Origin: Candidatus Desantisbacteria bacterium CG1_02_38_46
GTDB lineage: Bacteria; Desantisbacteria; UBA1551; UBA1559
Assembly (NCBI GenBank): GCA_001871015.1
Contig: MNUO01000065.1
Location: 1 to 10,979, forward strand
Direction: 5' to 3'
Length of the DNA stretch: 10,979 nucleotides
Made by a program: the position numbers and the translations under genes
Shown here: positions 1,426 to 9,207 of the stretch, piece by piece
How the letters are laid out: the number at the start of each line of letters is the position of its first letter
How positions within the stretch are numbered: position 1 is the first letter of the stretch
Notes under the pieces: generated by a model
Database searches by the model: none
Seen by the model: the letters and a program-made list of their open reading frames with translations, nothing else
Told to the model about the DNA's origin: nothing

Positions 1426-2017
1426 CTTACAAAATTCGTAACTCAGGGCTTTAGCACTGACAGGCTTTGGCCCTGATGTTCTTTCAAAAACGGCTTTACC
1501 AAAAGTAGGCTCACTTACTCGCCAGAAGCCTGTAGATTTGGTCGAAATAAGTTATGGATTTCTAGAAACAAATCGCTAGCCGAAAGTTCAGGTTCTTCTT
1601 ATTGTCTACTTCGTATAATATATGTTATGTCAAGTTGATAATAGAAAAACACATTTTTTTCTATTCCCCTGCCCACCCCACCCTACCATAAACATTGACG
1701 GACTCTTGCAGTTGAAAAATAACGCGCACAGGAGCCCGTATCATGCCTGAGGTAGATCCTCCTTTGGCGGAGAAGCATTAAATCTTAAAATTTGACATTC
1801 TTGCTTTGTAACCACGCATTCAATCGAAAACTTGACAAAGTAAACTAAATATGCTTTATGTTAGCAGTTTAATTGAGTTTTTTTAATCCCGACGGGAAAA
1901 AGAAATTTTCTAAAAGTGGCAATTTAATACTCACAACATAATTAAGAGACACAACACATAATTATGACTTTAAGTTTTTAAGGAAATAAATCAATAAATT
2001 CGCAAAATCTCCTCAGA
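1426..2017. other. Non-coding, structured intergenic region left of the recombinase trio
   Basis: No convincing gene on either strand. Visible structure: TCAGGGC (1443-1449) pairs with GCCCTGA (1470-1476). GGCTT (1492-1496) pairs with AAGCC (1526-1530). TTTCTAGAAA (1559-1568) is a palindrome. AATAGAAAAA (1640-1649) pairs with TTTTTCTATT (1656-1665). Base composition changes sharply at about 1665-1775, a GC-rich patch (CCCCTGCCC, CCTCC) inside AT-rich DNA. An isolated TTGACA at 1832-1837 lacks a good -10 box. A 24-bp motif at 1530-1553 recurs in diverged form at 5406-5430. The 16-bp repeat ACTCACAACATAATTA is at 1929-1944, with a degenerate copy at 1949-1964. This is probably end DNA of the RIT element plus older mobile-element debris. 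Confidence 0.5.
1929..1944 (+). repeat. 16-bp repeat copy 1 (ACTCACAACATAATTA)
   Basis: Perfect match to the copies at 2087-2102 and 6161-6176, all in the same orientation. It lies about 74 bp beyond the stop codon of the third recombinase. A looser copy follows at 1949-1964, where CACAAC and ATAATTA are separated by two extra bases. Read on the minus strand it encodes NYVVS in frame with an open 19-residue tail. Confidence 0.75.
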
Positions 2018-3061
2018 TTACAAGGATTTTAACAAGTCAAAAATGTTTTTGTCTTGTTCTGATTGATTGTCTTTTTCATCAAAAAAACTCACAACATAAT
2101 TAGGAGGGGCAAATTTAGTAAGCACCTCTCGCTTTTTCTTTAAATCAACATCTAAATATCTACTGGTAGTGCTGATACTGGCATGCCCAAGCCATGCCTT
2201 GATCAGGTTTAATTCTACCCCGCTTTCAAGAAGGTGCACAGCTGTAGTATGACGCAGACTGTGTGCAGATAAATGCTTTTCTTCTAATCTTTTATTCTTT
2301 TTTGCTGCTGCCTGAAGGTATTTCTTCACGATGTCCCAAACGCCAAAGCGGGTAAGGGATTGCCCACGCTGATTAATAAAAAGATAATCCTCAGATCCTT
2401 TCTGAGGAGTGCGGCGATATTTCCCTACGTATGTTTTCAAAAGACGGGCAGTAGATGGCCAGAGTGGACAGATGCGTTCCTTATCGCCCTTTCCCCAAAT
2501 TCTTACCTGCAGGTTTCCTTCCAGACTTAAGGAAGAGATTTTTGTATGGGCTACTTCATCTGCTCTTGCTCCGGTATTATACATCAAGAGAATAAGTGCT
2601 AAATCACGAAATCCCTCCTTTTTAAAAGAATCTATCTGGCGAAACAATAACTCCATTTCTTCCTTTTCCAGATAGGCAATAGTAGAACTGGAGGTTCTTT
2701 TAACAGGAATGGAAAGTATCTTCTTTGCCTGGGGAGCATAAACTTCACTTTGTAAGTTAAGATAACGAAAAAAGCAATGGATAGCTGCTAATCTCAGATT
2801 GCGGCTGCAGGGCCTGTTGCCCCTTCCTTTTTCTTTATCCTCCAGATAATTCAAGAAAGAAAGGACAGTCTTTACATCCAGGTCAAATACAGTAAATTCT
2901 TTTAAAAAATCCCCACCATTTTTAACAGAAAGAAAATTCAATAAAAGCCGGAATGTATCTCTGTAACTGGAAATGGTATTCTTGCTTAATCCCCTCTGTC
3001 CCTGCAGATACGAAGTAAAGAAAAGCTTCAGATGATTAGACAAAAGAAATGCTTCATTCAT
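2018..3061 (-). CDS. Tyrosine recombinase, third gene of the RIT trio
   Basis: A 347-residue tyrosine recombinase. The N-terminal SAM-like core-binding domain covers about residues 9-110 (GLSKNTISSYRDTFRLLLNFL). The catalytic domain covers about 125-318. Visible active-site residues are R166 (NTGARADEV), K191 (GKGDKER), H267 and R270 (AHSLRH), H293 (LGH) and nucleophile Y302 (TSRYLDVD). The start codon overlaps the stop of the preceding gene by 4 bp (ATGA), so it is translationally coupled. An acidic, polar tail follows the catalytic domain (about 321-347). The sequence encoding NYVVS (321-325) is one copy of the 16-bp repeat found on both sides of the module. If that repeat is a crossover site, the last 22 residues come from flanking DNA. 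By position it corresponds to RitC. Confidence 0.9.
   Translation of the reverse strand: MNEAFLLSNHLKLFFTSYLQGQRGLSKNTISSYRDTFRLLLNFLSVKNGGDFLKEFTVFDLDVKTVLSFLNYLEDKEKGRGNRPCSRNLRLAAIHCFFRYLNLQSEVYAPQAKKILSIPVKRTSSSTIAYLEKEEMELLFRQIDSFKKEGFRDLALILLMYNTGARADEVAHTKISSLSLEGNLQVRIWGKGDKERICPLWPSTARLLKTYVGKYRRTPQKGSEDYLFINQRGQSLTRFGVWDIVKKYLQAAAKKNKRLEEKHLSAHSLRHTTAVHLLESGVELNLIKAWLGHASISTTSRYLDVDLKKKREVLTKFAPPNYVVSFFDEKDNQSEQDKNIFDLLKSL
2087..2102 (+). repeat. 16-bp repeat copy 2, inside the third recombinase gene
   Basis: A perfect copy of ACTCACAACATAATTA, located in the coding sequence of the third recombinase, about 22 codons before its stop. On the minus strand it encodes NYVVS. Upstream context is partly shared with the copy at 6161: CTTTTTCA occurs 8-9 bases before each (2071-2078 and 6149-6156). 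Confidence 0.8.
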
Positions 3062-4071
3062 CTTTTTATCTTCCCTAATTTAATATCACCAAACTTTTCC
3101 TGAAATCGCTTATTCGCCTCTTTTAAGAGGGCATTGGAAATAGTAAGATATACCTGGGTTGATTCAATGTCCACATGTCCCATGTAGATGGAGAGAAGAG
3201 GTAGCTTATTTAAGACATCCTTTTCTTCCTGGTACCATTTGTAAAGCCTGTGCACGGCAAAGGAGTGCCTAAAATCATGCAGGCGAGGAGGGTTTTTCCC
3301 TTTAACTCTAAGGCCAAGATTGCAGGTGAGGGCGCGAAAATGGGCTTCAATAGTTAATTTAGAATATGCCTTTCTGTATCTACTCATAAATAAAGGTTCT
3401 TCCTGGCTTTGTGGTGGATATTTCTTGCCCCTTCGCATGAGAAATTCTTCCAATTTTTGTTTTACCTTTTCTGAAAAAGGGATAAGCCTTTCTTTACCAA
3501 ACTTACCTTTATAAATAAAAATAGTTCTTTCTTCAAGATTGATATCCTTAAGCCGGATATTCAATGCTTCACTTATTCTCAATCCCAGGGCATAGAGGAG
3601 ATAGATAATGGTGTAATGAGTGAGGTTTTCGTAAGGGTGGTTGCGGTGCATATTTCTCGCTTCCCCGAGAATTCTCAATATCTGCTCAACGGTATAGATA
3701 TAGGGTGAGTATTTTTTTACCTTGGGAGGAATAATTCCTTGCGCAGGATTAAATGTAATTACTTCTACTCTTTGCAAATATTTAAAGAACGACCTTACCT
3801 GGGAAAGCAAAAGGGTTTTAGTAAAGGGGCTTAAATAAGAGTGGTGATTAATCCATGAAAGTATAAATGCCCGATTAATTTCGCAAAGAGAATTTATTCC
3901 CTCTCTGACTAAAAATCTGTCAAAGTTTTTAAGCAGGGAAAGATTTGTCCCATACTTGTAGCCCAGACCTTGCATAAACTGGAAATAAGAATAAAGATAA
4001 TCTTTGAGGGAACTTCTAAAAGGATTAATCTTTTTTTCCATCTTTTCTTTGGCATCACAGGAGATTTGCAT
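3058..4071 (-). CDS. Tyrosine recombinase, second gene of the RIT trio
   Basis: About 337 residues from ATG 4071, or 340 from a GTG at 4080. Both starts lie inside the end of the upstream gene, so translation is coupled; neither has a well-spaced ribosome binding site (AGAGG is 3 bases from the GTG, 12 from the ATG). Numbering from the GTG, the core-binding domain is about 24-120 and the catalytic domain about 130-320. Active-site residues are R168 (LGLRISEA), K193 (YKGKFGKERL), H268 and R271 (LHDFRHS), H302 (MGH) and Y311 (TQVYLTIS). All six are present, so it should be catalytically competent. The last 15 residues are basic (GDIKLGKIKR). By position it corresponds to RitB. The three proteins probably act together in strand exchange; individual roles cannot be read from sequence. 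Confidence 0.9.
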   Translation of the reverse strand: MQISCDAKEKMEKKINPFRSSLKDYLYSYFQFMQGLGYKYGTNLSLLKNFDRFLVREGINSLCEINRAFILSWINHHSYLSPFTKTLLLSQVRSFFKYLQRVEVITFNPAQGIIPPKVKKYSPYIYTVEQILRILGEARNMHRNHPYENLTHYTIIYLLYALGLRISEALNIRLKDINLEERTIFIYKGKFGKERLIPFSEKVKQKLEEFLMRRGKKYPPQSQEEPLFMSRYRKAYSKLTIEAHFRALTCNLGLRVKGKNPPRLHDFRHSFAVHRLYKWYQEEKDVLNKLPLLSIYMGHVDIESTQVYLTISNALLKEANKRFQEKFGDIKLGKIKR

Positions 4072-5326
4072 AATTATCACTAACCTCTCGCAATTGTTCT
4101 AAATTTATCCTGATATATCTCATTGTGGAACAAATAGATTTGTGTCCAAGAATTTTAGAAATAATAGTAAGGGGTACTCCCTGGTCAAGCAGGTGCTTGG
4201 CTAAAGAATGCCTGAAGATATGTGCCCCTTTACTGGGGGGATTTAGCCCTGCTTTTTTTATGTATTTCCTTACTGTATTACTTACCCAATTTGGGCTTAA
4301 GGGTCGTACAGGAGCAGTGGCGCTAAGAAATAACTGGGGATATTCTTTCTTTGGCCGGCCAAACCTAAGATAATGTCCAATTGCCAAAGAGACTTCCTCT
4401 TTTAAGGGAAGGATTAATGTATCGCCGGATTTGCGCAAAGAAAAAACAATCTTTTTCTCTTTCCAGTCAATATCTTTAATCTTGAGATTAGTTATCTCTT
4501 TACTCCTTAATCCATAACTAACAAGTAGGACCAACACCGCATAATCCCTTTTGCCAACAGGAGTGTGAACATCTACTTGTTTTAATACCAATTCTATTTC
4601 TTTTCTGGATATATGTTTTGGTATTAATTTATCCCTGTACATTTTTGGAGAAATAATATGCAAAGAAATGTCCTTATTAATTTTCCCCGTAATAAAGAGA
4701 TAACGCAGGAAATTGCGAAGTACCCATTGTATAGATTGAAGACTACCTTGAGATAGAGATGATGTATAATTGAGCACAAATTCATCCAGGTTGGTAATCT
4801 TAAGGGATTTGAAATCCTTAATTTTCCTTTGCTCCAGGTATTGACCCATTCGCAGAATCCAGTGCCGATGTTTTTTTATGGTTCCTGTACTCAATCCACG
4901 ATAAATACGGCAGAAATTCAGATAATCCTCAATGAAAGGAACAACAACTTCTGGACAAGATGGTTTTTCTTCAAAATACCCCTTAAATTCTATTAGCCCC
5001 TGCTGATGTAGATAGAAAAGAAAACCCTTTATCATCCCATAAATAAGTTTCTGATATTTTTCCTTCAGGGATCTTCTAAACTTCTTTTTGAATTTTTTGT
5101 TCCTGTAGGAAAGATAATTCATTAAATCCTGTGGAGAAATTTGAGATAAGCAGTTTACCTTTCTCTTATGCAGATACTTTGCAAAGTGAAGGATATGTTC
5201 CAGTCCATGGTAAATTTTCCATTGGGAATAGCTGTTTTGCAAAAGATAGTCCAGGTATTCTTCCAGGTAAGGGGTAAAAATTCCCTTTTTGCAATTTTCT
5301 CTTACTTTTTTAAACAATCCTGTCAA
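4055..5326 (-). CDS. Tyrosine recombinase, first gene of the RIT trio
   Basis: A 423-residue tyrosine recombinase, longer than its two partners. It carries an extra N-terminal helical region (about 17-115) before a second SAM-like core-binding segment (about 130-215) and the catalytic domain (about 235-415). Active-site residues are R274 (YGLRSKEI), K299 (LRKSGD), H369 and R372 (HIFRHS), H395 (LGH) and Y404 (TMRYIRI), all present. The start is a TTG at 5326. No nearby ATG competes, and AAGGAGG sits 6 bases upstream, an excellent ribosome binding site that decides the start. It is first in the operon and overlaps the second gene. By size and order it corresponds to RitA. Confidence 0.9.
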   Translation of the reverse strand: MTGLFKKVRENCKKGIFTPYLEEYLDYLLQNSYSQWKIYHGLEHILHFAKYLHKRKVNCLSQISPQDLMNYLSYRNKKFKKKFRRSLKEKYQKLIYGMIKGFLFYLHQQGLIEFKGYFEEKPSCPEVVVPFIEDYLNFCRIYRGLSTGTIKKHRHWILRMGQYLEQRKIKDFKSLKITNLDEFVLNYTSSLSQGSLQSIQWVLRNFLRYLFITGKINKDISLHIISPKMYRDKLIPKHISRKEIELVLKQVDVHTPVGKRDYAVLVLLVSYGLRSKEITNLKIKDIDWKEKKIVFSLRKSGDTLILPLKEEVSLAIGHYLRFGRPKKEYPQLFLSATAPVRPLSPNWVSNTVRKYIKKAGLNPPSKGAHIFRHSLAKHLLDQGVPLTIISKILGHKSICSTMRYIRINLEQLREVSDNYANLL

Positions 5327-5629
5327 GATTTCCTCCTTAAAAGAAAATATTTCCTTATCCTACAACCTATTTTACACTATCTTTTTAAGATTTCAAGAGC
5401 GAACTCTGTTGATTTCAGCCGAAGTAAGCTCTTGTAAGAGGAAAAAAGCGTTTTTTTGGACAGTCCAGAGAGGATTTAAGAAGTTCAGATTATCCCCCTG
5501 ACTTACAGAAAAGGGTAATAAGGGAGAAGAATGAAGGCGGGAAAGAAAAAAGGCAGGATTTTTCTTTCCAGAAGTTGCTTCCGGGTAGGGATTTCCTGAC
5601 GAAGACTTTCAAAAAGAAGAGAGAATCTT
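5327..5629. other. Non-coding gap between the trio and the zinc-ribbon gene
   Basis: No gene is supported. Besides the trio promoter it holds a perfect 11-bp inverted repeat, GGAAAGAAAAA (5540-5550) with TTTTTCTTTCC (5559-5569), around the 8-base loop AGGCAGGA. This is a plausible processing or termination hairpin after the zinc-ribbon gene on the minus strand, though no clean T tract follows. The near-palindrome AAAAAAGCGTTTTTTT lies at 5443-5458. Confidence 0.45.
5369..5434 (-). promoter_or_regulatory. Promoter and inverted-repeat operator of the recombinase trio
   Basis: On the minus strand TTGAAA (5391-5396) and TAAAAT (5369-5374) are 16 bp apart and face the TTG start at 5326. The -35 box lies at the edge of an inverted repeat CAAGAGC (5394-5400) / GCTCTTG (5428-5434). 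A direct repeat GATTTCA occurs at 5389-5395 and 5411-5417. Part of this block (5406-5430) resembles 1530-1553 on the other side of the trio. Such repeats next to the -35 box suggest that the recombinases, or a regulator, bind here; that is inference. Confidence 0.55.
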
Positions 5630-6040
5630 TTAAAGGTTTCGGACCTGCTTGAATTTTTTACACCAGTGTTTTATGGTACTAATTGCCGGTTCAAGTTCAT
5701 ATTTCTGGCACAATTCATCGGCGATCTTTTCATAGGTAGAATCCTTCTTTTTCTTAACCACAAAAGAAATTATCTCTTTGGGATAGCGATGGTATTTGAC
5801 AAGGAAATCAGGAAGATAGGTAAAATTTTTCCCACAAGCCTTGCAGTGCACACGCTTGATGGTCAGGGTAAGAGGCCCCTTTGGTGTGATTACCGTTCTT
5901 TTATATGTTGCACACCAGATTAGACATTTCTTGTCAGTACATCCACAGCGTTCACATTTCTCTGGTTTGCGGAGCGTCTTTTCTTCTACTGAACGTTGAT
6001 AATACTTGACTTTTTGTACAAAACTGGTATAATTATACAT
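5630..6040 (-). CDS. Small zinc-ribbon protein, DUF6431-like
   Basis: 136 residues from ATG 6040. A two-part zinc ribbon is clear: C29-x2-C32 with C34 (KPEKCERCGC), then C66-x2-C69 (VHCKACGKNF), followed by the family-like stretch TYLPDFLVKYHRYPKEII (74-91). The C-terminal third (about 100-130) can form a helix-turn-helix (STYEKIADEL...STIKHWCKKF), as in the DNA-binding ends of transposase-like proteins. The frame extends to an ATG at 6091, but those 17 residues fall inside a 76-bp inverted repeat and do not look like the family, so ATG 6040 is preferred. Neither start has a good ribosome binding site. It lies upstream of the trio on the same strand with its own promoter. A DNA-binding accessory role in mobility is inferred; no catalytic residues are seen. 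Confidence 0.65.
   Translation of the reverse strand: MYNYTSFVQKVKYYQRSVEEKTLRKPEKCERCGCTDKKCLIWCATYKRTVITPKGPLTLTIKRVHCKACGKNFTYLPDFLVKYHRYPKEIISFVVKKKKDSTYEKIADELCQKYELEPAISTIKHWCKKFKQVRNL
6006..6033 (+). promoter_or_regulatory. Possible plus-strand promoter inside the zinc-ribbon gene
   Basis: TTGACT (6006-6011) and TATAAT (6028-6033) are 16 bp apart, reading right. The -10 box lies in the palindrome GTATAATTATAC (6027-6038). A transcript would start near 6040 at the edge of the 76-bp inverted repeat, run against the promoter at 6118-6145 and could reach the MNT gene at 6230. It overlaps codons of the minus-strand gene, so it may be fortuitous. Confidence 0.4.
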
Positions 6041-6116
6041 TGTAGGGGGAGAGGGAACGAAAAAAAGCGTCCCTTTGTATTTTTCTCCCATCAGAAGGGA
6101 AAATCGTCCCCCTACA
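6041..6116. repeat. 76-bp inverted-repeat (hairpin) element
   Basis: Perfect 10-bp ends TGTAGGGGGA (6041-6050) and TCCCCCTACA (6107-6116) enclose smaller stems: GGGAACG with CGTCCC (6053-6072) and TTTCTCCC with GGGAAAA (about 6081-6103). On the minus strand it forms almost the whole predicted 5' leader of the zinc-ribbon gene and ends directly at its ATG. It could be an mRNA control structure, a MITE-like repeat or the end of a mobile element. Confidence 0.6.
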
Positions 6117-6117
6117 T

Positions 6118-6145
6118 ATTATATTCTATTTTCTCTAATTGTAAA
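6118..6145 (-). promoter_or_regulatory. Promoter of the zinc-ribbon gene
   Basis: On the minus strand TTTACA (6140-6145) and TATAAT (6118-6123) are 16 bp apart. The predicted start is at about 6111, just inside the 76-bp hairpin element, so the transcript would begin with the hairpin and meet the ATG at 6040. Confidence 0.55.
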
Positions 6146-6160
6146 GACCTTTTTCAAAGA

Positions 6161-6176
6161 ACTCACAACATAATTA
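6161..6176 (+). repeat. 16-bp repeat copy 3
   Basis: A perfect copy of ACTCACAACATAATTA, 4,074 bp to the right of the copy inside the third recombinase gene and in the same orientation. It sits between the zinc-ribbon promoter and the MNT promoter. On the minus strand NYVVS continues in frame as SLKKVFTIRENRI and then a stop. Confidence 0.8.
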
Positions 6177-6208
6177 AACTCACAACATAATATGATATAA
6201 TGTGAGTT
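6174..6208 (+). promoter_or_regulatory. Promoter and operator-like palindrome of the MNT/HEPN pair
   Basis: A perfect -10 box TATAAT (6196-6201) has only a weak -35 (TTAAAC, 6174-6179). The 8-bp inverted repeat AACTCACA (6177-6184) / TGTGAGTT (6201-6208) spans the promoter, as expected for an autorepressed TA operon. GAGGTG (6219-6224) is the ribosome binding site, 5 bases before ATG 6230. Confidence 0.6.
6178..6191 (+). repeat. 16-bp repeat copy 4 (first 14 bp)
   Basis: ACTCACAACATAAT, identical to the first 14 bases of the repeat, starts 17 bp after copy 3. Its first bases form the left arm of the palindrome AACTCACA (6177-6184) / TGTGAGTT (6201-6208). Confidence 0.75.
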
Positions 6209-6229: not shown

Positions 6230-6592
6230 ATGAAAAGAAAAATAAATTCTTACAGAGATGCGTGGAAAAAACGATGGCTTGAGGACGTAAAAAACCGACA
6301 TATAAAATCTGATGCGGCAGAGAAAGCAGCTAAAAAAATATCCCTGATGTTAATCCGAAAATTTAAAGTGAATAAAATAATCTTATTTGGCTCTGTAATT
6401 AAAAAAGAGTTTGATTCTGGTTCAGATATAGATTTAGCTGTAGAAGGGTTAAAAAAAGAATTTTATATTAAGGCTTTAGTGGAAGCAGAAAATTTGGTTA
6501 ATTTTCCTGTAGACATAAAACCATTAGAAGAATGTAAGGGTTTTTTCAAAGAACAAATCCAGACAAAAGGAAGGGTATTATATGAGAAGTAA
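6230..6592 (+). CDS. MNT-type minimal nucleotidyltransferase antitoxin
   Basis: A 120-residue protein with a nucleotidyltransferase core at about residues 35-115. The diagnostic motif is ILFGSVIKKEFDSGSDIDLAV (51-71): G54-S55 and the metal-binding acidic pair D66 and D68, with the third acidic residue probably D95 (FPVDIKPLE). In the family these antitoxins pair with HEPN RNases and inactivate them by adding AMP residues to the toxin. The first 30 residues are strongly basic and aromatic (SYRDAWKKRWLEDVKNRH), an extension often seen when the partner is a HepT-like protein. It overlaps the next gene by 11 bp, so the two are coupled. The catalytic residues are intact, although its partner is broken. 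Confidence 0.85.
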   Translation: MKRKINSYRDAWKKRWLEDVKNRHIKSDAAEKAAKKISLMLIRKFKVNKIILFGSVIKKEFDSGSDIDLAVEGLKKEFYIKALVEAENLVNFPVDIKPLEECKGFFKEQIQTKGRVLYEK

Positions 6593-7013
6593 AGAGCAGA
6601 TACTTACTTTGATTTCAGAAATAGAAGAGGAATTAAAAAATATCCAGGTCTTGGAAGAAAGCATATCTAATTTAAGATCCAGAATTACGAATGTCACTGA
6701 AGAAGATAGAAGGTATCTAATAGAAAGCGCCGCACTGGAATTTCATAACTTTTATCTCGCGTGTGAGAGGATATTTGAGAAAATTGCTGTAGAAATTAAT
6801 GGTGGAATATCTTCTACCCCAGATTGGCATAGCCGACTTCTTAACAATATGACTTTAGAAATAAAGGAAATAAGACCCTCTGTGATCACTAAAGACTTAG
6901 CGCGAGATTTAATGCGATTACTTGAAAAAGAACCAAAAGTATGCTATAATATTTTTTGTCAAGAGTGGGGATTTTTCCCCTGCAAAAAGTGGGTATTTTT
7001 ACTTTGCAACTGA
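6582..7013 (+). pseudogene. HEPN (HepT-like) toxin, C-terminally truncated
   Basis: The first ~115 residues look like a HepT-like HEPN protein: a helical N terminus (SKEQILTLISEIEEELKNI) and the family stretch ESAALEFHNFYLACERIFEKIAVEINGGISSTPDWHSRLLNNMTLEIKEIRP. The family then needs an R-x4-6-H RNase motif in the last helices, of the kind LRxFRHxxRHxYG. Here the frame instead runs LARDLMRLLEKEPKVCYNIF and then QEWGFFPCKKWVFLLCN, which is read from an IS21-like end. No R-x4-6-H motif occurs, so the toxin should be inactive. The homologous part ends at about 6925. The gene starts at ATG 6582 with GGAAGGG upstream. It was probably destroyed by insertion followed by deletion. Confidence 0.75.
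6922..6950 (+). promoter_or_regulatory. Promoter-like sequence at the broken toxin end
   Basis: TTGAAA (6922-6927) and TATAAT (6945-6950) are 17 bp apart, with the extended -10 TGC at 6942-6944. It begins where HEPN homology stops and ends just before the IS21-like end, and no gene follows. It may be the orphaned promoter of a lost gene or a chance match. Confidence 0.4.
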
Positions 7014-7290: not shown

Positions 7291-7563
7291 TTATTGCCCT
7301 GTTTTAGCCAATATCTTCTCATCCTGGTCCCGGAGGCAAAAATATGCGGTAAGAGGAAGAGGGAAAGATTCTATTTTCCTTTTATTTCTAAACCTTTCCT
7401 CAAAGTGAAGAATGGTAAACCCGATCACTTCCTTAGTCTTGGGATGCATTTTTACATAAATCTCGTCACCAATTTCTAAAGAAATGGACTCACGTGAACC
7501 ACCAAGGGAAATATTTAATTCATCAGCGTGCTTATCATATGAATAGGTTAGTCTTTTTTCCAT
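7291..7563 (-). CDS. DUF2283 protein, putative antitoxin
   Basis: 90 residues. The N-terminal two thirds match DUF2283: LTYSYDKHADELNISLG (5-21), then SISLEIGDEIYVKMHPKTKEVIGFTILHFEERF (26-58), a small beta-rich domain. The last 30 residues (KRKIESFPLPL...) are less conserved. The family has no proven activity, but its members often sit beside small RelE-, DUF4258- or PBECR-like proteins, where they are taken to be antitoxins. That fits here: it overlaps the end of the upstream nuclease-like gene by 16 bp in the same operon. The start is supported by AAAGGAGGTGA located 6 bases upstream of ATG 7563. Gene order is toxin first, the reverse of the DUF433 pair. Confidence 0.75.
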   Translation of the reverse strand: MEKRLTYSYDKHADELNISLGGSRESISLEIGDEIYVKMHPKTKEVIGFTILHFEERFRNKRKIESFPLPLTAYFCLRDQDEKILAKTGQ

Positions 7564-7868
7564 AGTAATTCACCTCCTTTGCTCAAATTATATACGGGAA
7601 AACTAGTTTTTACATAGCCGTGATGTACTTTTATTTCTACCACAACGAGAAGGTAGAAGTGGCCATATTTAAAATGTGTATGTCCTCTAAAATACAAGTG
7701 GGAAGTTTTACTAATCTTGCTTTGAAATATACAATCAGGATCTTCCAAGGTTTGTTTTATCTCCTTATGAAAGTGTTTCATAATAGGATGTTCAGGGATG
7801 ATATGGTTATTCCAGCAAACCCTGGACAAAGAAACAGTTATTCCGCGCGGATCTTTTACTTTAAACAT
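7548..7868 (-). CDS. Putative RelE/Barnase-like (PBECR-type) RNase toxin
   Basis: 106 residues. The pattern resembles the PBECR group of the Barnase-EndoU-ColicinE5/D-RelE superfamily: VSLSRVCWNNHIIPEHPIM (12-30) with W19, H22 and H27, then IKQTLEDPDCIFQS (37-50), a strand pair HLYFR...HFYLLVVVEI (57-78) and GYVKTSFPVYNLSKGGELLWKK (84-105). Histidines H22 and H27 and the K/T of YVKTS are candidate catalytic residues by analogy. Family assignment is from pattern memory only; a DUF4258-like protein is the main alternative. It is first in a two-gene operon with the DUF2283 gene. Its promoter lies at 7924-7952. The ribosome binding site is weak (AAAGGT), in contrast to the strong one of the DUF2283 gene, as expected for toxin-low, antitoxin-high expression. 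Confidence 0.55.
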   Translation of the reverse strand: MFKVKDPRGITVSLSRVCWNNHIIPEHPIMKHFHKEIKQTLEDPDCIFQSKISKTSHLYFRGHTHFKYGHFYLLVVVEIKVHHGYVKTSFPVYNLSKGGELLWKKD

Positions 7869-7923: not shown

Positions 7924-7952
7924 AGTATACATTAAAATGAAGGAAAAGTCAA
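7924..7952 (-). promoter_or_regulatory. Promoter of the nuclease/DUF2283 operon
   Basis: On the minus strand TTGACT (7947-7952) and TATACT (7924-7929) are 17 bp apart. The start would be near 7917, giving a leader of about 50 bases to ATG 7868. The whole promoter lies just outside the left end of the IS (7968), so it survived the insertion, and it is overlapped by the run-on 3' end of the transposase reading frame. Confidence 0.7.
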
Positions 7953-9053
7953 GAAATTAAATCGCTTTTTTTGGAAAAGGGAAGGTACATGGTATCCCCA
8001 TCTCTCATAGAATTGAGACATTGATTTAAAGCTGGAGAAGTTAGAACAAGCAGAAATTTTTTGAGCTAACAATTCATCCAAATCAACCGGAGGCAATCTG
8101 GTAACCTCAGGATTAATATGGGGCGCTATTTCTTTTAAGATTTCAAGGGGTGTCTTATCATCTTTGTAGCTATTTTTTCTTAGTTCATTGAAAAATAGGT
8201 TGTGAGTTGTAACCTTTGACCAGAAACTTTCTTTGGAATCAAAGGTTTCTAAGTCAAAAAACTCATCTTCAATTAAGCGGTGAACAGTTTCTGTATCACT
8301 GTTATAGATGTGTGCTCCAGGAGGAATACGACCATGTTTACAACCATATACTTCCTCAAGGACAAGAGTAAATTCTGATGGATTTTTTGTGTTGCAGGTT
8401 AATCCATATTCAGGTCCATTATCTGACTGCCACTTAACTTTTCTTAAGTTAACCCCACAGGATTCAAGATGTTGATTGACATATTCAACAAAGACAATAG
8501 AATGTGCAAGGCTTGATTCTTTTGCATATCCTAAGAATTGTATTCCAGCTCTGACATCCCTTGCAGTGTATTGAACCTTAGGTAAATCCAAACTCATCAT
8601 TTGGGGCCAGTAATTGGGAATGTCATTAAGAACTTTTGTGTCGGTTCCAATCTGCTGGAAGACTTCCCACTTAGATTTTACTTTTCTTAAATCGTTCTTT
8701 GTTTTGTGTTTCTTCTTTCTTTGTCTGGTTAAGTTATATGCTTTGTATATCCGCTGTATTGCCTTATGGGAGCAAGGTATATCAAAATCCCTCTTTAATC
8801 TTTCTGCTCCCCAGGTTTTAAGACGGGTGCGCAGGTCCACAACTCTTTTCTCTATTTCTAAGGATGTCTTATGTGGAATGTTGTGAGGGGCACGGGATTC
8901 CTCTTTTAGTCCGGACAATCCCTTTTCCTCATATAGCCTTCTCCATTTACGCACAGTCTTAACAGTAGTAGAGAAAACCTTTGCACAGGGCTTATTGCCA
9001 TACTTCTTAGCATACATTACCATTTTAAGGCGTAAATCAAAGGGGTTCTTCAT
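7932..9053 (-). CDS. DDE transposase, IS481-like
   Basis: 373 residues from ATG 9053; a TTG at 9065 would add four. Domains: helix-turn-helix at about 14-52 (YAKKYGNKPCAKVFSTTVKTVRKWRRLYEEKGLSGLKE), a linker with WGAERLKRDFDIPCSHKAIQRIY (81-103), then an RNase H-like integrase core. The candidate catalytic triad is D138 (QIGTDTKVL), D211 (WQSDNGPEYG) and E255 (NSDTETVHRLIEDEFF). Length and architecture fit the IS481 group, though related IS3-type families share the core. The frame has no stop within the IS: the C terminus reads through the left inverted repeat (GYHVPSLFQK) and about 11 residues of flanking DNA before ending at 7932. The core is intact, so the protein may be active. Confidence 0.85.
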   Translation of the reverse strand: MKNPFDLRLKMVMYAKKYGNKPCAKVFSTTVKTVRKWRRLYEEKGLSGLKEESRAPHNIPHKTSLEIEKRVVDLRTRLKTWGAERLKRDFDIPCSHKAIQRIYKAYNLTRQRKKKHKTKNDLRKVKSKWEVFQQIGTDTKVLNDIPNYWPQMMSLDLPKVQYTARDVRAGIQFLGYAKESSLAHSIVFVEYVNQHLESCGVNLRKVKWQSDNGPEYGLTCNTKNPSEFTLVLEEVYGCKHGRIPPGAHIYNSDTETVHRLIEDEFFDLETFDSKESFWSKVTTHNLFFNELRKNSYKDDKTPLEILKEIAPHINPEVTRLPPVDLDELLAQKISACSNFSSFKSMSQFYERWGYHVPSLFQKKRFNFLTFPSF

Positions 9054-9207
9054 TTGTCTTACCAAATCAAAATGTGAAATATAACCTCTTTTGAAATTTT
9101 TTGGCCCCAGGGCTTATTTACTACTTTTTCCAGTTCTCTAAATCTCTTCTCTGAAAGACAGGTGATTTGCCTTGGGGGGATACCATGTACCTTCCCTTTT
9201 CCAAAAA
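7968..9207 (-). mobile_element. Insertion sequence with perfect 32-bp terminal inverted repeats
   Basis: The left end (7968-7999) and right end (9176-9207) are perfect inverted copies over 32 bp, starting TTTTTGGAAAAGGG and ending GGTATCCCC. The element is 1,240 bp and holds one transposase gene. Perfect repeats and an undamaged gene point to recent arrival. No direct target duplication was recognised: CGCTT lies outside the left end and TTCAA outside the right. It separates the promoter of the nuclease/DUF2283 pair from that of the GntR gene. Confidence 0.92.

Follow-up and report, generated by a model that had tools for sequence, protein, structure and literature searches.

The closest described systems are the recombinase in trio (RIT) elements, ritABC (Van Houdt et al. 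2009, 2012, PMC3414803), which are recognised by their gene order, short gene overlaps, tyrosine recombinase motifs, an extra N-terminal domain of RitA, terminal inverted repeats and insertion into other genes or elements. Their terminal inverted repeats measure about 34 bp (PMC10214605), and two successive core-binding domains are a stated feature of RitA (PMC8138268). RIT mobility is undemonstrated, and why three recombinases are needed has been called “difficult to understand” (PMC3414803). Comparable arrangements are found in the GInts and SEs, where a trio of tyrosine recombinases is joined by a single small gene that encodes no recombinase, GinD or Srap (PMC5385486, PMC10214605); in a GInt, the cargo follows a ginABCD operon located at one end, and 10–11-nt direct repeats flank the island (PMC5385486). 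In Tn554, a small extra gene, TnpC, accompanies two recombinases. Here, we are describing a stretch of 10,979 nucleotides (“the window”, contig MNUO01000065.1 of Candidatus Desantisbacteria bacterium CG1_02_38_46), in which positions 1856–6190 very probably represent a four-gene RIT of a subgroup shared with Elusimicrobia; its repeated 16-mers would be recombinase half-sites, and its insertion site the promoter of an MNT-HEPN toxin-antitoxin operon.

The trio consists of the following genes:

2018..3061, minus strand: RitC, tyrosine recombinase of 347 aa with intact R-HxxRH-GH-Y motif
3058..4080, minus strand: RitB, tyrosine recombinase of 340 aa, overlapping RitC by 4 bp
4055..5326, minus strand: RitA, tyrosine recombinase of 423 aa, whose N-terminal part is modelled as two consecutive four-helix domains

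The genes are thus arranged in the order A-B-C on one strand, with RitA and RitB overlapping by 26 bp, and the R, HxxRH, GH and Y motifs are present in all three products. In the predicted model of RitA (mean pLDDT 86.6), helices at residues 18–108 and 129–212 fold into two four-helix units ahead of the catalytic domain, of which Pfam detects the second only; in profile comparison, RitA matched XerD structures. The comparison set comprised about 90 other RIT loci. Among 80 loci recovered from the GTDB collection with a RitC profile, 67 had a counterpart for each of the three recombinases, arranged as in the window. Because of the gene order, the short overlaps and these ordered counterparts, the trio is, on sequence grounds, a RIT element, as the original prediction from the DNA letters had proposed; its calls of three tyrosine recombinases and a DUF6431-like zinc ribbon likewise proved correct in Pfam and NCBIfam matches. 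The element is presumably mobile; a second copy of the RIT was not found in the source assembly.

The main paper on RIT ends is reportedly that of Ricker et al. 2013. In plasmid RITs and other genomic RITs, the terminal inverted repeats consist of two TTATGTG-like half-sites, plus an oppositely oriented inner half-site. Both ends could be mapped in 40 loci with a script that allowed an outer half-site spacing of 16–18; the spacing was 17 bp at both ends in all 40, and the outermost half-sites of the two ends were mutually inverted. Of 65 loci not belonging to the subgroup, 50 had the inner, oppositely oriented half-site at −20 to +40 of the RitC stop (counted from its last base, as are all signed half-site positions below). 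The median length of RITs was 3,484 bp. Many RITs have a 20-bp half-site palindrome in the target beside one end, and the 6-bp flanks of RITs other than that of the window mostly agree in inverted orientation (perfectly in 14 of 34), which together suggests that many RITs may use a specific palindromic target. Both features, the palindrome beside one end and inverted 6-bp flanks at both ends, are exemplified by L165, L176, L178 and L181. As a separate observation, IS21-type istA/istB genes repeatedly host or adjoin RITs (L109, 8171–9891; L095; L097; L098).

Against this background, the half-sites of the window are arranged as follows:

1856..1884, plus strand: outermost half-site(s) of the RitC end, in inverted orientation to the RitA-end pair and matching it at 20/29 positions; the second half-site is degenerate
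1929..1944, minus strand: inner half-site of the RitC end, second of a 20-bp-spaced pair (16-mer), +77 from the RitC stop
1949..1964, minus strand: inner half-site of the RitC end, first member of that pair, matching at 13/16 positions, +57 from the RitC stop
2087..2102, minus strand: half-site (16-mer) in the RitC coding region, in the length-variable C-terminal linker, −81 from the stop
6161..6176, minus strand: inner member of the outer pair at the RitA end (16-mer)
6178..6193, minus strand: outermost half-site of the RitA end, 17 bp from 6161; TTATG closes the element at 6190

The 16-mer ACTCACAACATAATTA (on the opposite strand, TAATTATGTTGTGAGT) occurs exactly on the plus strand at 1929, 2087 and 6161 and as a 14-bp copy at 6178; a mismatch search confirmed these copies and their common orientation, which the original prediction had pointed out. 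With up to 3 mismatches allowed, the window contains 7 matches versus 0.20 expected from shuffles. Elsewhere in the 1.73-Mb assembly of 133 contigs, a match within 2 mismatches is present at a single place (C76:34699), and the 16-mer is therefore not scattered through the genome. The copy at 2087 lies within the RitC frame, as had been stated for the 3′ coding part of the third recombinase, and encodes the residues PPNYVV, whereas those at 6161 and 6178 are upstream of the DUF6431 start. Two copies had been overlooked, a weaker one at 1949 (3 mismatches) and an inverted, diverged one at 1856, the real outer RitC end. The latter, TTATGTTAGCAGTTTAATTGAG..., agrees in 20 of 29 positions with the RitA end at 6161–6190; it is the best match in 1312–2017 (706 bp) and was equalled in 6 of 2000 shuffles. 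The window element thus possesses terminal inverted repeats, albeit weaker ones than its relatives. A 22-bp inverted match at 1478/6162 was dropped as a candidate element end; it is devoid of a half-site, while 1856 fits the positions in relatives.

The arrangement at the RitC end recurs in three RITs from Elusimicrobia metagenome-assembled genomes, L109 (JACQYT010000017.1), L110 (JAPLKK010000120.1) and L111 (PFUL01000091.1). In the RitC tree, the window protein forms a clade with these three (support 1.0, long branch), to which it is 48–50% identical, and 48–49% when aligned over the full length. In coding orientation, the window half-sites are found at −81, +57 and +77, with the outermost, inverted one at +162. 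L111 has them at −75, +53 and +73, L109 at −75 and +53, and L110 at +74; L109 and L110 both carry the outermost inverted half-site at +159. A diverged but visible counterpart of the pair's second half-site follows the first at a distance of about 20 bp in L109 (TATATGGCGAGT). The three Elusimicrobia RITs hence keep most or all of the RitC-end layout of the window within a few bases. The RitC-internal copy, present in L109 and L111, encodes an FxPPxYV segment of the linker, which is variable in length among RITs. RitA itself is shorter in L110, longer in L111 and gone from L109, together with most of RitB. RitA as a single query retrieved no relative from genome contigs and viral contigs, scanning of viral contigs with the subgroup profile yielded more distant RITs only, and the single other genome of the host phylum was without a RIT match.

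Since this layout is kept in the Elusimicrobia RITs, we place the element at about 1856–6190, a predicted length of 4,335 bp that includes the DUF6431 gene. The repeated 16-mers are most likely recombinase half-sites at its ends. What had been predicted as site-specific recombinase sites would hence be recognition sequences, but not simple boundary repeats; half-sites do mark both ends of related RITs, with the copies at 1929, 1949 and 2087 taking inner positions.

The extent of the element at the RitA end depends on its fourth gene, which is preceded by a promoter-like sequence and overlaps a second one:

5630..6091, minus strand: DUF6431 gene with zinc ribbon and helix-turn-helix-like part, possible alternative start ATG at 6040 (PF20020, E 2.2e-10)
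6006..6033, plus strand: outward-facing promoter-like TTGACT-16-TATAAT (11/12), within a repeat that also occurs at C76, C75, C62 and C63
6118..6145, minus strand: promoter-like TTTACA-16-TATAAT (11/12), reading into DUF6431-RitA-RitB-RitC

It could be argued that the RIT is a plain one of about 3.4–3.5 kb with its RitA end near 5430, leaving the DUF6431 gene and the 6161/6178 pair outside, for instance beside a DUF6431-type transposon. The gap between the end and the RitA start is usually 22–193 bp in RITs versus 864 bp here; in L124 (Armatimonadetes), a DUF6431 gene (53–805) is located just upstream of and outside the RIT; and DUF6431 genes elsewhere adjoin genes for a DDE transposase and an ATPase (see also the annotation in PMC12323340). 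However, no half-site with up to 3 mismatches exists between 5326 and 6161, which places the DUF6431 gene inside the element, in agreement with what had been predicted for the zinc-ribbon gene. Furthermore, the half-sites at 6161 and 6178 are spaced by exactly the 17 bp found in RITs and face outward as in relatives, and L110 is likewise long-leadered (711 bp), with a small cysteine-rich open reading frame (ORF; 174 aa, unrelated to DUF6431) before RitA. This element was the one clear long-leader case in a separate inverted-repeat search reaching 2,500 bp upstream; the end mapping itself sought RitA ends within 420 bp of RitA, so that elements with large leaders would escape it. Altogether, a plain RIT is improbable, and the four-gene element extending to 6190 is to be preferred.

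As to its nature, the DUF6431 product matched the ISH6 transposase N-terminus in NCBIfam (E 3.3e-11, below the curated cut-off) and a transposase in PHROGs (E 1e-5). Most likely, this DNA-binding protein arose from a transposase N-terminus and is carried as a passenger or serves as an accessory. A transposase remnant downstream of the gene was not found by tblastn, and a search against plasmids gave no match. The idea of DUF6431 as a conserved RIT partner was not borne out, with the gene inside none of the other RIT loci compared.

The original prediction envisaged the direct repeats at 2087 and 6161 as crossover sites that could release all four genes on a circle of 4,074 bp. These copies are perfectly identical over 16 bp and share their orientation, and tyrosine recombinases can excise DNA between direct sites. 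Yet such a circle would remove from RitC a conserved C-terminal segment, which aligns with relatives and contains the invariant L344; the RitC-internal half-site is common to relatives whose outer ends are 159 bp past the stop; and the outermost half-sites are inverted, not direct, in the 40 mapped RITs. Given the positions shared with the subgroup, the copies at 1929, 1949 and 2087 are subgroup features rather than circle boundaries, and a RIT would cross over at its outermost inverted half-site, which makes the 2087/6161 circle highly improbable.

For the four-gene element ending at 1856 and 6190, the flanks permit a reconstruction of the insertion site:

1832..1837, plus strand: orphan −35 box TTGACA, outside the element; MNT-HEPN promoter of the inferred empty site
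1850..1855, no strand: 6-bp overlap TATGCT at the RitC-end junction, nearly equal to TATGAT of the other junction
6191..6196, no strand: 6-bp overlap TATGAT at the RitA-end junction
6196..6201, plus strand: orphan −10 box TATAAT, outside the element and belonging to the MNT-HEPN operon
6230..6592, plus strand: MNT nucleotidyltransferase antitoxin, flank, outside the element (PF18765, E 2e-14)
6582..7013, plus strand: HepT-like (HEPN) toxin, flank (PF20797, E 1.1e-13)

On the outside, TATGCT and TATGAT extend to a common AATATG. Joining of the flanks at AATATG gives AAAACTTGACAAAGTAAACTAAATATGATATAATG, a TTGACA-17-TATAAT promoter (12/12) directly upstream of the MNT-HEPN operon, of which either flank alone retains one box only; arbitrary nearby joins produced such a promoter in 118 of 8000 cases. 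The predicted flank-to-flank junction reads TTGACAAAGTAAACTAAATATGATATAATGTGAG. The tyrosine recombinases probably bind the half-sites and cleave at the 6-bp overlap outside the outermost ones (TATGCT/TATGAT), and the element would have integrated into the promoter of the MNT-HEPN operon, separating its −35 box from its −10 box. The outward-facing promoter inside the element may now drive the MNT-HEPN operon and restore its expression. In L110, TGGAAC is directly repeated at both junctions in the same 6-bp arrangement; the subgroup may thus use the 6-bp overlap differently, with two cases being too few for certainty.

The repeat carrying the outward promoter is found at four other places of the assembly, always pointing at a downstream gene or operon. 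It is very hard to sustain that the 16-mers are merely an operator or leader of MNT-HEPN, or part of this mobile promoter repeat, and unrelated to recombination: the 14-mer at C76 does end a 174-bp promoter-bearing repeat without RIT genes, and the family, with its hairpin leader, precedes unrelated genes, ndk and another MNT-HEPN pair among them, but the 14-mer is absent from the shorter copies (C75, C62 and C63), so that the C76 copy is the only one elsewhere with a RIT half-site, and the 1929, 1949 and 2087 copies would be unaccounted for, although they occupy positions conserved in RIT relatives. Assignment of the RitA-end repeats to the promoter repeat, based on the C76 copy, was also considered and is outweighed by the 17-bp pair, its orientation and the layout in relatives. 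At the outer edge of the C76 copy, a group II intron with reverse transcriptase (L006, 4747–6607) directly adjoins the 14-mer.

Several observations weigh against a four-gene RIT in the MNT-HEPN promoter. Most RITs have near-identical ends, but here the outer half-site of the RitC end has diverged, with a degenerate second half. A target palindrome, as seen in many RITs, is missing at the window element, and the direct 6-bp overlap is limited to the window and L110, with most other RITs showing inverted flanks. The subgroup layout stands on three relatives, and a true empty site was not found. Finally, C76:34540–34712 (L006, 4541–4713) is a 94% copy of window 6001–6174, 174 bp in length, with one half-site at its end and no RIT genes, and is unexplained; it may be a remnant of another copy of the element or a mobile promoter cassette.

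Compared with known RITs, the window element is longer (4,335 bp versus about 3,480 bp) and departs from their passenger-free norm by the DUF6431 gene between RitA and the RitA end; it also differs in its asymmetric ends, the RitC-internal half-site and the direct rather than inverted 6-bp flank. The Elusimicrobia RITs share the RitC clade and nearly the same RitC-end layout, and L110, in addition, the direct overlap and the presence of a small cysteine-rich ORF preceding RitA, but none of them contains DUF6431. The small extra gene is reminiscent of GInts, SEs and Tn554; unlike in GInts, where ginD follows the integrases, the zinc ribbon precedes RitA, the ends are inverted and no cargo lies behind the recombinases. 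The half-site start TTATGT and the 6-bp overlap we take to be Xer/dif-like; unlike Xer/dif, there are multiple half-sites per end, on a mobile element and not a chromosome dimer site. A more far-reaching reading, a deep RIT subgroup of candidate phyla characterised by asymmetric ends, a recombinase binding site of one end within the RitC coding region, crossover at a direct Xer-like 6-bp overlap in place of palindromic targets, a zinc ribbon beside the RitA end acting as accessory DNA-binding factor and an outward promoter sustaining expression of the interrupted operon, is tentative and rather unlikely.

The surroundings are rich in toxin-antitoxin-like modules, with further such genes at 318–1311 and 7291–7868 (BrnA-like, a DUF433-DUF5615 pair, DUF2283 with a PBECR2-like ORF). 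An IS481-like transposase at 7932–9207 is bounded by perfect 32-bp inverted repeats (7968–7999 and 9176–9207). Short left-flank sequences (1437–1528) recur at C58, C99 and C65, partly in near-tandem, and the window gave no match to an RNA family.

Taken together, the four-gene RIT with asymmetric ends is a variant of a known element type, with a well-bounded predicted empty site. For the question of how the three RIT recombinases divide their labour, the compared ends give a concrete anatomy, with 17-bp-spaced outer pairs in most mapped RITs and an inner inverted half-site near the RitC stop in most. The window provides a natural variant with rearranged half-sites and, thus, makes a model of three recombinases and three half-sites directly testable.

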